This document shows positions 3,479 through 63,175 of a stretch of 64,000 nucleotides of DNA, in pieces. The notes under the pieces were generated by a model. The model ran no database searches, was not told where the DNA came from, and saw only the letters and a list, made by a program, of their open reading frames with translations. Where the stretch lies: positions 215,945,962-216,009,961 of the forward strand of contig CM077644.1 in assembly GCA_039707465.1 (NCBI GenBank), read 5' to 3'. This DNA comes from Rhabdophis nuchalis (taxonomy: Eukaryota > Chordata > Lepidosauria > Squamata > Natricidae). Every line of letters begins with the position of its first letter. Positions within the stretch are counted from its first letter, which is position 1. The position numbers and the translations under genes are program-made.

Positions 3479-4823
3479 CCGTATCTGCCGGCGTATAAGA
3501 CGACTTTTTTGCCCTGAAAAACATGCCTCCAAGTGGAGGGGTCGTCTTATACGCCGGGTCGTCCGCGAGGTCCCCTTCTTGCAAGTCTACGCGCAATGGT
3601 TTCCTCTTTCCCCCCTGTCTCTTTCCCCTCCATGCAAGTCTCTCGCGCGCGATGGTTTCCTCTTTCCCCTTCATGCAAGTCTCTCTCGCGCGCGATGGTT
3701 TCCTCTTTCCCCCTGTCTCTTTCCCCTCCATGCAAGTCTCTCTCGCGCGCGATGGTTTCCTCTTTCCCCCTGTCTCTTTCCCCTCCATGCAAGTCTCTCT
3801 CGCGCGCGATGGTTTCCTCTTTCCCCCTGTCTCTTTCTCCTCCGCACAAGTCTCTCTCTCGCGTGATGGTTTCCTCTTTCCCCTCCATGCAAGTCTCTCT
3901 CGCGCGCGATGGTTTCCTCTTTCCCCCTGTCTCTTTCCCCTCCATGCAAGTCTCTCGCGCGCACGATGGTTTCCTCTTTCCCCTCCATGCAAGTCTCTCG
4001 CGCGCGCGATGGTTTCCTCTTTCCCCCTGTCTCTTTCCCCTCCATGCAAGTCTCTCTCTCGCGCGATGGTTTCCTCTTTCCCCCTGTCTCTTTCTCCTCT
4101 GCGCAAGTCTCTCTCACGCGCGATGGTTTCCTCTTTCCCCTCCATGCAAGTCTCTCTTGCGCGCGATGGTTTCCTCTTTCCCCCTGTCTCTTTCTCCTCC
4201 GCGCAAGTCTCTCTCTCGCGCGATGGTTTCCTCTTCCCCCCTGTCTCTTTCTCCTCCGCGCAAGTCTCTCGCGCGATGGTTTCCTCTTCCCCCCTGTCTC
4301 TTTCTCCTCCGCGCAAGTCTCTCTCGCGATGGTTTCCTCCCCCCTGTCTCTTTCCCCTCCGCGCAAGACTTGCACGGAGAGAGAGACTTGCACTGAAAGA
4401 GACAGGGGGGAAGGAGGAAACCATCGCGCAAGAGGGGAAAGAGACAGGGGGGGAGGAGGAAACCATCCGCAGCCACGCAGAGACTTGCCGCTTTTCCACG
4501 CGTGCAATTACAAGGCAAGTTTCCACCGCTGGTCTGAAGTGCAGTGACAGTGACAGAGAGAGAGAGAGGCCCAGAGCGAGAGAGAGAGACAGAGGGAGGG
4601 AATCAGAGTCTGTCAGGTACACACAGGGAGGGAGAAACAGAGAGAGACAGGGAGGGAGGGAGGGAGGGAAGGTGACAAAGAGCCACAGAGACATTGTGTG
4701 TGGAAGGTGTGCGGAAGAGGGGGTAGTCTTATACAGCGAGTATATAACAAACTCTATATTTTGAGTGGAAATGATGGGGGGTCGTCTTATACGCCCAGTC
4801 GTCTTATACGCCGGCAAATACGG
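3479..4823. mobile_element. TA-flanked MITE carrying a 57/43-bp tandem array
   Basis: The termini are near-perfect inverted repeats of 26 bp (25 of 26 match), beginning CCGTATYTGCCGGCGTATAA, flanked on both sides by TA (3477-3478 and 4824-4825). This suits a Tc1/mariner-type target. A subterminal TATAAGACGAC motif is repeated near both ends. The interior is a pyrimidine-rich tandem array (3594-4370) followed by purine-rich inverted copies (4371-4475), so the strand can fold back. No transposase. Long ORFs across it on both strands (up to 492 codons) are artefacts of a 57-bp (19-codon) stop-free unit. Confidence 0.8.
3594..4370. repeat. Tandem array with two unit lengths, 57 and 43 bp
   Basis: GATGGTTTCC recurs at 3651, 3694, 3751, 3808, 3865, 3908, 3965, 4008, 4065, 4122, 4165, 4222, 4275 and 4328. 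The steps are 43, 57, 57, 57, 43, 57, 43, 57, 57, 43, 57, 53 and 53. Short units lack a 14-bp CCCCTGTCTCTTTC-like segment. Each unit carries a GCGCGCG run, unusual in CpG-depleted surroundings. Confidence 0.95.
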
Positions 4824-33639: not shown

Positions 33640-34115
33640 TTATAATATAGAATTAGAGAAAAGGCAAAAACTTTTAGACAATCAACTATGGCTTCAGCTT
33701 ACAAAGAAAATCTTTATAAAATGTTTTACAGGTGACATCTGCCACCTGCAAGACTGGTGAAAATGTTTAGTAGCCTGTCCGCTAAGTGCTGGAAATGCAG
33801 TCAGACCCCAGGTACCTATTACCACATGTGGTTGACATGTAAAGCAAGACAATATTGGGAGAAAATACAAAACTGGCTGGAAATGATAATCAAACAGAAG
33901 ATTTAGTTGAAACCAGAAACATGTCCCCTAGGTATACTATCAGAGGGCTATGATAAAGGGAGCATATTAGTTAGTTTTATACATACTGACAGCAACAAGG
34001 ATCATATATGCTAAATATTGGGAAATGTGAACACCCCACCAGAGGAGGTTGTAAGTCGAATTTTTTTTGACTATGCCAAAATAAATTGTAACAATTAGAA
34101 TAGTTGCTCATGATC
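33640..34115 (+). pseudogene. L1 ORF2 C-terminal relic
   Basis: Translation gives LSAKCWKCSQTPGTYYHMWL followed by TCK, the CX2C...HX4-5C knuckle at the end of L1 ORF2, then TATRIIYAKYWEM and, in the next frame, TPPEEVVSRIFFDYAKI, which correspond to the last residues of the protein. Stops and one frameshift. The clade call rests on the knuckle and the following pattern. Confidence 0.65.
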
Positions 34116-39779: not shown

Positions 39780-42746
39780 GAATTTATTTATTTTATTTTA
39801 TTTTATTAAATTTATACCCCGCCCTTCTCCTTGTTAGGACCCAGGGCGGGGCACAGGCATTATATAAAACCATAAATACAATATACATCAATCAATTAAA
39901 AATATATTAAATTAATTCACCCGTGCTAAAACCCATTATTAAAACCGTAACCAAATTATAATTTATATTTAAAAGTCAGATGCGGGGGGCTATCCTAGGC
40001 CGGCTTGTTGGAATAAGTACGTCTTAAGACGTTGGCGGAAGAGGCAGAGGTCCGAGGTAGTGCGAAGGTCGGGGGGTAGGTCGTTCCAGAGGGCTGGGCC
40101 CGCCACAGAGAAGGCTCTTCCCCTGGGTGTCGCCAGCCGGCATTGCCCAGCCGACGGCACCCGGAGTAGGCCCGCTCTGTGGGAGCGGACCGGACGAAGG
40201 GATGTATGGGGCAGGAGGCGGTCTCGTATATAGCTAGGCCCCGAGCCATGGAGCGATTTAAAGATGGTGGTCAACACCTTGAAGCGCACTCGAAAGGCCA
40301 CAGGCAGCCAGTGCAGCTCGCGCAGGAGAGGTGTTACGTGGGCTTGCCTTGAGGCACCCATAACCACCCGCGCGGCCGCATTCTGCACTAACTGCAGCCT
40401 TCGAGTGCACCTCAAGGGGAGCCCCATGTAGAGAGCGTTACAGTAATCCAGCCGAGATGTCACGAGCGCTTGAGTGACTGTGCGAAGGGCCCCCCGGTCT
40501 AGTAAGGGGCGCAACTGGCGTATCAGGCGAACCTGATAGAACGCCCCCCTGGCCACGGCCGCCACATGGTCCTCCATGGCCAGCCGGGAATCCAGAAGGA
40601 TGCCCAAGTTGCGCGCCCTCTCCACGGGGGCAAGATGTTCGGCCCCAATGGCCAGTGTTAGATTTATCTGGCTAAACCGGGGTGCCGGAAACCACAGCCA
40701 CTCGGTCTTGGACGGGTTGAGCTTGAGTTTGTTACTACCCATCCAGATCCGTACGGCCTCCAGACACCGGGACAGCACCTCGATGGCATCGTTGGGGTGG
40801 TTTGGGGTGGATATGTACAGCTGAGTATCATCAGCGTACAGATGGTACTCCACCCCAAAACCACGGATGATCTCGCCCAGTGGCTTCATGTAGGTGTTGA
40901 ACAGAAGTGGCGAGAGGACCGACCCCTGAGGAACCCCACATGTGAGGGGCCTCGGGGCCGACCTCTGCCCTCCTGCCAACACCCATTGCGACCGACCAGA
41001 GAGGTAGGATGAGAACCACCGTAAAACGGTGCCTCTCAGCCCCAACCCCCCCAATCGGTGCAATAAGATACCATGGTCGATAGTATCGAAAGCCGCTGAG
41101 AGGTCTAACAGGACCAGGATAGAGGAGCAACCTCTATCCCGAGCCCTCCAGAGATCATCCACCAACGCGACCAATGCCGTCTCGGTACTGTGACCGGGCC
41201 GGAAGCCGGACTGGCGTGGGTCTAGATAATCAACTTCCTCCAGATGTCGAGGGAACTGTTGAGCCACCACACTCTCAACAACCTTCACTAAAAAGTGAAG
41301 GTTGGAGACGGGACGATAGTTCTCTAATAAAGCCGGGTCCAGGGATGGCTTCTTGAGGAGGGGCCTCACCACCGCCTCTTTCAAGACGGTAGGCAAGAAC
41401 CCCTCACTCAGAGATGAATTCACAATACCCTGGAGCCAGCCTCGTGTCACCTCCCAGGATGCCAGTACAAGCCAGGAGGGGCACGGGTCCAATAAACATG
41501 TGGTGGCTCTAAGGTTCCTCCGCAACCTGTCCATATCCTCGGTAGTAACAAAGTCGAACTCCTCCCAAGGTGTTATCTCAAGACCAGCACCGGGCACCTC
41601 GACCGGACCACTAGTGGAGGGCAGCTCGTTCCGAATCTGAGTGATTTTGTCCTGCAGGAAAACTCCAAATTCCTCTGCTCGACCCTGCAAAGGGGCTTCC
41701 CGCGGCCTCAGATGAAGGAGGGAACGGGTCACCCCAAACAGGGCGGCAGGGCGGTTTTCCGCGGACGCGATAAGGGTGGCACAATACTCACGTTTGGCCA
41801 CTCTTAGCGCCACTAAGTAAGTCCTAATATGGTCTCTCACTAGTGTTCGGTCAGCTTCGGATCGAGAAGATCTCCACCTACTCTCTAGGCGTCTCTTGCG
41901 GCGTTTCATCTCCCGAAGCTCCTCGGTAAACCAAGGAGCCTGGGTGACTCGACGCCGCATGAGAGGCCGCAAGGGCGCGACTCGGTCCAAGGCCCCCGTG
42001 GCCGCACTATACCATGCGGCCACTAGGTCCTCAGTCGAGCCGCGGGGCAGGGATACAGGTACTGGCCCAAGCTCCCTCTGGAACCTTTCCGGGTCCATCA
42101 GGCGCCTGGGGCGGAACCAACTTGGTGTTTCCGGTTCTGCCTCCCCGCGGTGGGGTGTGACGGTTGGAAAGTCTATCCGAAGGAGAGAGTGATCTGTCCA
42201 TGACAAGGGTAAGATGTCTAAATCCCCTGTTCCGAGATCACTAATCCAGTGTCCAGAGACAAAAATCAGATCCAGCGTGTGTCCTCCCTCGTGAGTGGGG
42301 CCCTGAACTACTTGGGTCAGGTCCATGGCCGTCATGGAAGCCATGAACTCCCGAGCCGCCTCGGATGTTTCGCCCGCCGACGGCAGGTTAAAGTCCCCCA
42401 TGACTATAAGTCTGGGGGTCTCCACCGCCATCGCGGCGATCACCTCGAGTAGCTCGGGCAGGGCTGCTGTTACATAGCGGGGAGCCAGGTATACAATCAG
42501 CAAGCCCAACTGCCTCTCTAGGCCCCACTTCACGAAGAGGGACTCACAGCCGGTCGTCTGAGGCACAGTGGTCTCCTTCGGCTCCAGACTTTCCTTAACA
42601 ATAACCGCCACCCCCCCACCCCTGCCAAGGGCCCTAGGCCGATGAAATGCACGGTAGCCTGGTGGGCACATTTCCACGAGGGGTAAACCCCCCTCGAGGC
42701 CCAACCAGGTTTCCGTGATTCCCACCAGGTCCGGGTCCCCCTCTTA
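39780..42746 (-). mobile_element. L2 LINE, nearly complete ORF2, (TAAAA)n tail
   Basis: Minus strand: starts inside the endonuclease coding region, carries an uninterrupted ORF2 remainder, a 3' UTR of about 200 bp with the CCTGGGTCC...AGGGCGGGG hairpin and a TAAAATAAAATAAA tail at 39781-39806. GC-rich against an AT-rich background, and close to the fragments at 6659 and 17129. 5' truncated, so promoter and ORF1 are missing. Confidence 0.95.
39990..42725 (-). CDS. L2 ORF2: endonuclease (N-truncated) and reverse transcriptase
   Basis: 911 codons without a stop. Residues 2-8 GITETWL hold the catalytic Glu of the AP-type endonuclease; GDFN is at 110-113 and the TDH end of the triad at 177-179. 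The RT spans about 440-680: NYRPVSNLHFLVKVVES, LDLSAAFDTIDH, LTCGVPQGSVLSPLLFN and HLYADDTQLY (the YADD box). After it follow NPSKTEWLWF and a C-terminal region with HVTPLLRELHWLPVAF and AFSVAGPALWNDLPPD, ending at QQAGLG. The frame is open a few codons upstream (EGDPDLV) to the truncation near 42746, so the first 30-40 residues of the endonuclease, including its first Asn, are lost. The listed start is a GTG in the frame, not a true start. Confidence 0.95.
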   Translation of the reverse strand: MGITETWLGLEGGLPLVEMCPPGYRAFHRPRALGRGGGVAVIVKESLEPKETTVPQTTGCESLFVKWGLERQLGLLIVYLAPRYVTAALPELLEVIAAMAVETPRLIVMGDFNLPSAGETSEAAREFMASMTAMDLTQVVQGPTHEGGHTLDLIFVSGHWISDLGTGDLDILPLSWTDHSLLRIDFPTVTPHRGEAEPETPSWFRPRRLMDPERFQRELGPVPVSLPRGSTEDLVAAWYSAATGALDRVAPLRPLMRRRVTQAPWFTEELREMKRRKRRLESRWRSSRSEADRTLVRDHIRTYLVALRVAKREYCATLIASAENRPAALFGVTRSLLHLRPREAPLQGRAEEFGVFLQDKITQIRNELPSTSGPVEVPGAGLEITPWEEFDFVTTEDMDRLRRNLRATTCLLDPCPSWLVLASWEVTRGWLQGIVNSSLSEGFLPTVLKEAVVRPLLKKPSLDPALLENYRPVSNLHFLVKVVESVVAQQFPRHLEEVDYLDPRQSGFRPGHSTETALVALVDDLWRARDRGCSSILVLLDLSAAFDTIDHGILLHRLGGLGLRGTVLRWFSSYLSGRSQWVLAGGQRSAPRPLTCGVPQGSVLSPLLFNTYMKPLGEIIRGFGVEYHLYADDTQLYISTPNHPNDAIEVLSRCLEAVRIWMGSNKLKLNPSKTEWLWFPAPRFSQINLTLAIGAEHLAPVERARNLGILLDSRLAMEDHVAAVARGAFYQVRLIRQLRPLLDRGALRTVTQALVTSRLDYCNALYMGLPLRCTRRLQLVQNAAARVVMGASRQAHVTPLLRELHWLPVAFRVRFKVLTTIFKSLHGSGPSYIRDRLLPHTSLRPVRSHRAGLLRVPSAGQCRLATPRGRAFSVAGPALWNDLPPDLRTTSDLCLFRQRLKTYLFQQAGLG

Positions 42747-60811: not shown

Positions 60812-61167
60812 CTATCTTCCAGTGGTGGGTTCCAGATCCCATTGCAACTGGTACGGTTGCAATGGGGCCCAGCATCCTCCACATGAATGCGTGCAGCACG
60901 CACATGCGTCTTCGTTTTGAAAAAGTTTTATTGGGTTTTATAAATTTTTTACAAATAGGGTAAAGGGTAAGGTGTAAAAAGACATTTTGAGAACTTTCAC
61001 GTCGAAGTCGTTGACTCCTTCCGAAACTTCATAACAGAATATAGATAATACATTTAACTTACATTTGTACTACAAAGTGGAGAGAAATGCAAATATATCA
61101 TTGTGAAAAACTATGCTAGCAAACATGTATAAACATCCAAACAATATTATATTATATTAAAATAAAG

Positions 61168-62046
61168 TCACTTTTGAGATCTAAGTCTTTTGGCAATTGT
61201 ATCTTCTTTTCCCTGGCCCCCAGTGGGCGGGGCCGCGGCACCCTCTGCTCCCCCATTTTCATCCTCCAGGATTGAGGAATGTTTTTCAAGAAAGGCTTCC
61301 GCCTCTGCAATTGTTTTAATTCTTACTCTTCCTCCCTCCCAGAATATCAACATTCCCTCTGGCATCACCCACTTGAACCAGACCCCCCTTTTAAATAATC
61401 TTTTAGACAAGAAGGAATACTTCCTTCTTATCTCTCTAATCTTCTTCGGGACCTGCTTCAAGATAGCTACCTCTTTCTGTTGATAAACTAAGGGATCGTC
61501 TCTCTGCGCCCTCAAGATCCTTTCCCTTGTCGACCTTCTAACAAATTTAATATGTATCTCTCTGGGTACTTCATTTATCCTGGCATATGCTGAATTTATT
61601 CTATATATCAAATCGATGTCCCCCCTTATCTCCTCCTTAGGCTTGTGTAAATAATCTGCTAAAATTGTACACATTAAATCAGTTAAATCTTCATCACTTG
61701 CCTCAGGAACGTTCTGAAATCTTAAAAAATATGACATCCTTTCAAAATCCATCCTAGACATATGACCAGTTAAATCTCCAATTTCATTATTAATACTTTT
61801 AAGCTCTCCCTTTGCCCCAACTAACCCCACCTCCAGCTCATCAGTCTTTTGTGCATTTTCCATTAATTTCTTCTGTACCTCCAAAAGTTCTAACTTAGAG
61901 CTGACTTGGTCCTTTCTCATTTCTTTAATTTCTTTCACCAAGGTTTGAAGAGTTTCTTCCATTGCTGTTAATCTAGCATCCGTATCAGGTTTTTCAGGTA
62001 ACATCGAAGTGATTTTAGGCTGATGTGTCTGCTTTTTTGAAGCCAT
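61168..62046 (-). CDS. L1 ORF1 RNA-binding protein
   Basis: 292 codons, intact, starting ATG at 62046 after a long leader. Residues about 24-100 have heptad-like spacing typical of the coiled-coil trimer region. About 104-195 form the RRM (YFLRFQNVPE), and about 196-275 the C-terminal domain (KEVAILKQVPKKIREIRRKY; FKWVMPEGMLIFWEGGRVRI). The tail is Gly/Ala-rich and ends RLRSQK. In L1 elements this protein binds L1 RNA as a chaperone in the cytoplasmic particle. The length is near the 300-340 residues usual for the family. No ORF2 follows. Confidence 0.92.
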   Translation of the reverse strand: MASKKQTHQPKITSMLPEKPDTDARLTAMEETLQTLVKEIKEMRKDQVSSKLELLEVQKKLMENAQKTDELEVGLVGAKGELKSINNEIGDLTGHMSRMDFERMSYFLRFQNVPEASDEDLTDLMCTILADYLHKPKEEIRGDIDLIYRINSAYARINEVPREIHIKFVRRSTRERILRAQRDDPLVYQQKEVAILKQVPKKIREIRRKYSFLSKRLFKRGVWFKWVMPEGMLIFWEGGRVRIKTIAEAEAFLEKHSSILEDENGGAEGAAAPPTGGQGKEDTIAKRLRSQK

Positions 62047-62923
62047 GGTGAAGAATTTAAGTCTGTGTCAGTAAGATGGCGTCTGCTGGAAAGGAGCTAG
62101 TGAGGCAGGAAACGAGCAAGTTCCAATGAACAAAGTCTTAGTTGTTACCTAATTAAAGTCCAGAGAGAAACCAAATTTTTACAATCGAATAGAAGAAAAA
62201 AGGCACTTCAGGGAAAGGACCAATTAATCAATTACAAACAATCATAAGTAAAGAAAAGGAGAGGCAGTCCCATTCACTAGGGAATATCAGCAATCATCCA
62301 TGAATAGTGTATCTCAGGAGAACAAAGGAACGCCATCTTCCCTGCCCATCTGGAAGCCACCGGGAATTAACAAAGTGGAAAATTGCTTCTTTATTGCCAG
62401 ACTTCGATTCTAAGTATCCACGATCATTCCGGAAAGACTTTCACTCACGATCAGAAAAGTTTGAATGCAGGTTTCTATGCTTCCTCAAGCCTGAGGAGCA
62501 GTTTCAAAACGCCGCTTTTCTTCCGTTCCAAGGGGGGGTTTCACAAACCCCCCCCTCCATCGCTTTGTTAAGCAAAAGTTGCAAGCAGAAAGAGAAAGTC
62601 ACTCACAATCCACTCTGCAGCGAAGAGTCTCAGCTTTGCCTCCGACTCCAGCGATTCAGCCCTCTCACGAAGCATTAGATGTTCCGGTCCTCCTTCAGCG
62701 AAGGGAACCAAGCCCCCCGCAGCATGTTCCTTTACTCCTGGGTTGAGGACAAGGACCCCCCCCCGCCGACCGCCGTCGGGATAGGGAAATCCCAGCGAGC
62801 CGACCGTACGGCGGGAATCCTTTAAAAGGAATTCCCTGCCCCGTTGGGGGCCGTAAAAGAAGCAAAATGGCGGACGAGTCCCAGGATTCGACCGTCGCCT
62901 CCGGGAAACCGGAAGAAAGTCCA
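62047..62923 (-). promoter_or_regulatory. L1 5' UTR, presumed internal promoter
   Basis: GC-rich leader with CpG-containing blocks and C runs (GGGGGGGGGTCC on minus), ending at the left target-site copy. L1 5' UTRs carry the promoter; its presence in full here is inferred from the target duplication starting right at its end. Confidence 0.55.
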
Positions 62924-63175
62924 CACATGCGTCTTAATGTCCAGTGATGCCTCTGTGAGCCTCCGCAATGCTCCAGCTGCTTGGCAGAGCATTGCACAGG
63001 CACTGTATGCACCATCTGCGTGTGTGGAAATGCGGAGTTTAAAGACAGGTAAGGAGTGTAAGCGGGCGGGGTGGGCCTTCTGGAGCACCATACCGGAACA
63101 GTACCCGGTGCTCCGAGCAGGCTCTAGTACGCCCGTACCGGGGTGTACTGCCTGCAACCCACCACTGCCACATTC

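Follow-up and report, generated by a model that had tools for sequence, protein, structure and literature searches.

A propagating half-L1 family with an open ORF1 and no ORF2 in the genome of Rhabdophis nuchalis

A stretch of 64,000 nucleotides from contig CM077644.1 of the Rhabdophis nuchalis assembly, referred to here as the window, contains an L1-like unit that has an open ORF1 but no ORF2. One-off internal deletions and processed copies of spliced RNAs are known for L1, and a single locus formed in either way would look identical to a member of a propagating family. In mammals, elements of this layout, termed HAL1 or half-L1, have reportedly been described by Smit in 1999 and by Bao and Jurka in 2010. 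The locus therefore raises the question of whether the unit is an isolated product or one copy of a family that multiplies in this form, and whether its ORF1 is open through youth or through selection.

An earlier note, made from the letters of the window alone, had described a unit between perfect 12-bp target duplications with a leader, a 292-codon ORF1 and a 3' end without ORF2. This description was confirmed to the base (Table 1). The unit lies in a repeat that we take to be a hAT-like DNA transposon, whose inverted ends (60820-60835 and 63152-63167) match at 94%. The candidate 8-bp duplication flanking this host repeat, CTATCTTC and CCACATTC, matched at 5 of 8 positions only.

Table 1. 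Features of the half-L1 locus, in window positions
Feature	Position	Strand	Remarks
Older host repeat	60820..63167		terminal inverted repeats CAGTGGTGGGTT; interrupted by the half-L1 insertion
Target-site duplication, element's 3' side	60901..60912		CACATGCGTCTT, 12/12 identical to 62924-62935
Half-L1 element, 2011 bp	60913..62923	-	39/40 scored matches (window copy included) cover nearly the whole unit at 90-100% identity
3' end, 255 nt	60913..61167	-	AATAAA at 60927-60932, terminal CAAAACG
ORF1, 292 codons + stop, ATG to TGA	61168..62046	-	open frame; coiled coil, RRM-like part, C-terminal part
5' leader, 877 nt	62047..62923	-	between duplication and ORF1 ATG
Target-site duplication, element's 5' side	62924..62935		CACATGCGTCTT, 12/12 identical

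Near the extreme 5' end of the element (62903-62923), the sequence CTTCCGG was observed, presumably an ETS-type promoter motif; it occurs twice in an old copy of 70% identity at locus L010. A further candidate at the 5' end, which we took for a YY1-like site, was set aside because the copy at L009 differs in one base there.

Translated searches of the window element were made with pieces of L1 ORF2 from this genome (endonuclease, reverse transcriptase and C-terminus) and gave no match (best E 0.15). Each of these pieces, used as a query, matched other loci at E 2.7e-22 or better. When the queries were compared with Pfam, the two reverse-transcriptase pieces were assigned to RVT_1 (6e-16 and 3.5e-18), the endonuclease piece reached only 16.8 bits against a cut-off of 27.4, and no family was matched by the C-terminal piece, which comes from L027. 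This last piece was counted as L1 ORF2 on the ground that it forms the end of a 628-residue frame in L030, the element of which continues in L035.

The same assembly (1.918 Gb, 348 contigs) was searched with the element, and the best 40 of 8153 first-look candidates were scored. All 40 matched, and 39, the window copy among them, were near full length at 90-100% identity; the remaining one (query bases 461-2009, + strand) lacked the 3' part. Twenty-eight of the 40 copies (L001-L028) were examined; since these were the best-scoring ones, completeness is favoured in the sample. All 28 ran for about 2 kb from the 5' end to the 3' end without ORF2. The 3' end was reached within ten bases in every copy and the 5' start within ten bases in 26, L009 and L028 starting at bases 45 and 37. 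Duplications of at least 7 bp flanked 25 copies (three had none); in 23 the copy's own duplication measured 9 bp or more, with a median of 15, compared with a chance level at 9 bp of 12 in 1314 random placements; those of L003 and L022, among a few, lie in simple sequence and are weak. The copies occupy different places with mostly different duplications, and only 15 flank-to-flank matches were found between copies, which resemble other repeats. The earlier note had suggested a HAL1-like propagating family and had named as its test the finding of many copies that share the ORF1/3' junction, each with its own duplication. The outcome was positive, and the window element belongs to a propagating half-L1 family with its own target duplications. 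The two bases before the duplication were mostly T and the duplication began A-rich, resembling sites of the L1 endonuclease; because A tails blur the boundary, this preference is L1-like without being exactly measured.

The weak or absent poly(A), noted earlier as odd, was also seen again. The window copy ends in CAAAACG directly against the duplication, an ending found in four of the 28 copies (L001, L010, L019, and L020). Several others end in CAAAAC(G) plus a few extra bases, and in many of the rest the end is a short A-rich run, the one in L012 reaching about 20 bases. Because the terminus recurs in this way, it is a trait of the family and no accident of the window copy. Tailless retropseudogenes are reported from the green anole (PMC5322556). 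The 3' ends of L018 and L022 have additional bases between CAAAACGAA and the duplication, possibly read-through of the source locus. On inspection, some older copies had seemed to form a hairpin stem near the 3' end, but folding did not bear this out and the idea was set aside: of six stretches folded, one (L010) did clearly better than its shuffles (z -3.2, against -0.6 to 0.4 for the rest), and a consensus fold made from 17 sequences reached -1.7 kcal/mol, with one of seven pairs changed on both sides.

Mean pairwise divergence among the 28 copies was 5.2% (mean K2P of the leader, 0.063), and their tree contained at least three supported subfamilies. The window copy's own branch was 1.0%. 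The divergence by codon position in ORF1 was 0.037/0.026/0.066 over the 28 copies, and the full 292-codon frame was open in 17 of them. Among these 17 intact ORF1s, variants shared by at least two copies comprised 25 nonsynonymous and 37 synonymous changes, whereas under six neutral models a nonsynonymous share of 70-75% would be expected (p 1.1e-6 to 5.6e-9); these p values are rough because variants were treated as independent. In contrast, private variants (77 nonsynonymous, 35 synonymous) matched the neutral expectation (p 0.07-0.41). The scarcity of amino-acid changes among shared but not private variants means that selection acted on ORF1 in the source lineages; the pattern is that expected if sources are selected and their copies then drift. 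The earlier note had offered a young insertion or a selected ORF1 as alternatives, and both hold.

Older relatives were present in the loci of the 28 copies, where ten further matches from nine elements showed 66-81% identity. Two of them (L010 1271-3250 and L026 7618-9575) preserve nearly the whole unit at about 70% in the same layout, and the L010 copy has a 20-bp duplication. Older ORF1 stretches compared with the window ORF1 gave dN/dS of 0.11-0.24, except for 0.43 in one 44-codon stretch. Of eight such stretches, four would be open but for one or two stops, or lay in decayed parts (L010 and L025), indicating that the older copies also drifted after insertion.

The identity of ORF1 was examined at the levels of sequence and fold. 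The Pfam L1 RBD model scored 16.8 bits against ORF1, under its cut-off of 22.4, and a false coiled-coil match scored slightly higher; human L1 ORF1p reached an E of about 0.1 against the single sequence. A profile of eight aligned relatives, including the L1 ORF1 of L035, retrieved human L1 ORF1p at E 5.3e-5 to 2.5e-4, with a coiled-coil myosin chain just ahead (4.8e-5). In the predicted model, which is of fair confidence only (mean pLDDT 60.5, pTM 0.36), a long helix (22-96) and RRM-like and C-terminal parts can be distinguished. The top eleven Foldseek matches were all human LINE-1 ORF1p, ten of them under E 0.001, and the human L1 ORF1p trimer was matched at E 1.2e-7. Whole-chain TM-scores to L1 ORF1p were low (0.21-0.39, rmsd 14-18 A), and the central domain alone gave a target-normalised TM-score of 0.64. 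The ORF1 of L035, the 5' part of the L1 in L030 and the sole L1 ORF1 compared with that of the half-L1, was 41.7% identical to it over 108 residues. Because profile and fold both lead to human L1 ORF1p and the L035 ORF1 is related at this level, the frame belongs to a distinct lineage of L1 ORF1s. The named relatives from the protein search were all snakes (Naja, Laticauda, Pseudonaja, Micrurus, and Erythrolamprus) at 31-44% identity, and in a tree without mammals the half-L1 ORF1 was nested among the ORF1s of snake L1s. The half-L1 ORF1s clustered with full support, together with a pair of short public records, P0001 and P0002, whose contigs do not extend far enough to reveal the layout. Neither the viral nor the phage collection contained a match to ORF1, and an exact search of the viral collection with 23 bases from the 3' end also gave nothing.

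Potential donors of ORF2 protein are abundant. A 205-residue C-terminal piece of L1 ORF2 matched at least 150 C-termini in the genome, all at E 4.1e-78 or better, of 25742 loose candidates; other pieces, present in the window, in L012 and in L013, are very different from this query. A full L1 with the half-L1 leader, ORF1 or 3' end was not found among six L1 loci (L029-L034), where the half-L1 3' end had at best a match of 44 bp that was not significant (E 0.017). Elsewhere in the window, at 33748-33960, lies another fragment of an L1 ORF2 C-terminus, 51% identical to that of L027 and with a stop codon.

We consider it very likely that the window element belongs to a non-autonomous L1 derivative of HAL1-like layout that has persisted for a long time and is probably moved by the ORF2 protein of ordinary L1s. 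The earlier note had also raised a one-off internal deletion and the reverse transcription of one spliced L1 RNA. Both fail because the layout recurs with the same ends in all 28 copies at different places, because subfamilies exist and because two copies of only about 70% identity share it, so that we give this origin almost no credence. An autonomous L1 family unseen in our results might instead splice ORF1 to the 3' end repeatedly, giving the 2-kb form each time. Full L1s are common, and such a parent is absent from results in which only the best 40 DNA candidates were scored; but the 28 copies lack ORF2, subfamilies are marked by shared variants, and no ORF2 match at E 1e-5 was found upstream of related 3' ends in 12 pieces, ten of them only 551 bp long. 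Recurrent splicing is thus improbable.

Purifying selection on ORF1 would also be seen if it were a domesticated gene, incidentally copied as processed pseudogenes. There are several source lineages, however, 26 of the 28 copies begin at most ten bases from the same 5' end (in a sample of best-scoring copies), and older copies have the same layout, which makes a domesticated gene highly unlikely. That ORF1 is intact merely through the youth of the copies agrees with the short branch of the window copy and with the neutral look of private variants, but hardly with the strong depletion of amino-acid changes among shared variants or with dN/dS values against older copies, most of them 0.11-0.24; we regard youth without selection as distinctly unlikely.

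For the long-lived non-autonomous derivative, the following cycle can be proposed. An RNA driven by the leader would carry ORF1 and end near the AATAAA, and ORF1p would coat the half-L1 RNA that encodes it. ORF2p supplied in trans by L1 would nick target sites of the TT/AAAA type and reverse-transcribe the RNA starting at the short run of A at its 3' end, so that duplications of about 15 bp result. Judged from sequence, mobilisation in trans by L1 ORF2p is probable, being consistent with the L1-like target sites and with the many L1 ORF2 C-termini.

A related branch lacks an intact ORF1. A search with the 3' end of the older L016 copy returned the query and 39 matches at 98%, as the best 40 of 2349 candidates, and upstream sequence was fetched for 12 of the 39, ten of the pieces being only 551 bp long. 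Half-L1 ORF1 sequence was present in ten of the 12; L043 and L046 showed no element within the 551 bp fetched. L037 and L040 were 5'-truncated inside ORF1. The middle of ORF1 is covered by eight pieces, every one of which carries a deletion in it: one common junction is shared by L038, L041, L042, and L045, and a larger deletion whose right-hand side is the same occurs, with small mutual differences, in L036, L039, L044, and L047. The ORF1 ATG was gone in all seven pieces that reach the ORF1 start. In three of these seven pieces (L038, L039, and L047) the frame starting at the next ATG remained open throughout the sequence fetched, so this branch may encode a shortened protein. With the older L026 copy as outgroup, a calculation by hand put dN/dS at about 0.26 for the branch of the window copy and at 0.49 for that of L036. 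As judged from the 39 3'-end matches and 12 upstream pieces, the branch with a damaged ORF1 has also multiplied, implying that ORF1 in cis is not strictly needed. We tentatively suggest, as a scenario somewhat short of probable, two tiers of L1 parasitism, in which a half-L1 with a selected ORF1p borrows ORF2p, and a daughter without the ORF1 start, shaped by stepwise nested deletions that removed part of the RRM, borrows both proteins, perhaps including the ORF1p of the half-L1.

As a layout class, half-L1 describes the family directly: the L1 ORF1 is open, ORF2 is absent, and the unit propagates with duplications. Like mammalian HAL1 as described in PMC5753468, PMC3627910, and PMC5322556, it encodes L1 ORF1p only, makes target duplications, is multi-copy and has long kept a coding ORF1, and there is good support for the view that it functions as HAL1 does. 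Half-L1s are reported to have arisen several times in mammals (PMC5753468), and in guinea pig ORF1 is reported to have retained its coding capacity for about 29-44 million years (PMC3627910). Unlike mammalian HAL1, the present family has a squamate host, an ORF1 that falls among snake L1 ORF1s in a tree without mammals, and an ORF1-broken sister branch; its tails are short or absent, whereas HAL1 is said to have poly(A). We infer an independent origin from a squamate L1. With full-length squamate L1 it shares the type of ORF1, target-site duplications and a long leader; Anolis L1AC1-15 leaders are 800-1500 bp and full-length Anolis elements 5.2-6.8 kb (PMC5389967), but the half-L1 is 2.0 kb long and without ORF2. 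Like SINEs it is non-autonomous and probably moved by LINE proteins; it differs from them in coding for a protein under selection and in its length of 2 kb.

Half-L1s are described as mammalian in PMC5753468, PMC3627910, PMC4161310, PMC5322556, PMC3747384, and PMC5389967. No squamate half-L1 appeared among the open-licence literature matches listed; Repbase lay outside this scope, and the family may be catalogued elsewhere. The family would extend half-L1s beyond mammals, and loss of ORF2 with ORF1 kept would be a repeated, stable outcome of L1 evolution. With sister branches of selected and broken ORF1 in one genome, both of which multiplied, the reason why L1 parasites keep ORF1p becomes directly testable.

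Two further observations concern other parts of the window. At 39990-42743, an open 917-residue reverse-transcriptase frame of another LINE is closest to squamate reverse-transcriptase proteins. Its best-scoring matches were lizards at about 50% (120 of 655 matches listed), and the highest identities among the matches listed were to snakes, Pituophis (82% over 22% of the query) and Erythrolamprus (72% over 51%). At 3571-4370, direct repeats carry long open frames on both strands, which are probably repeat-driven.
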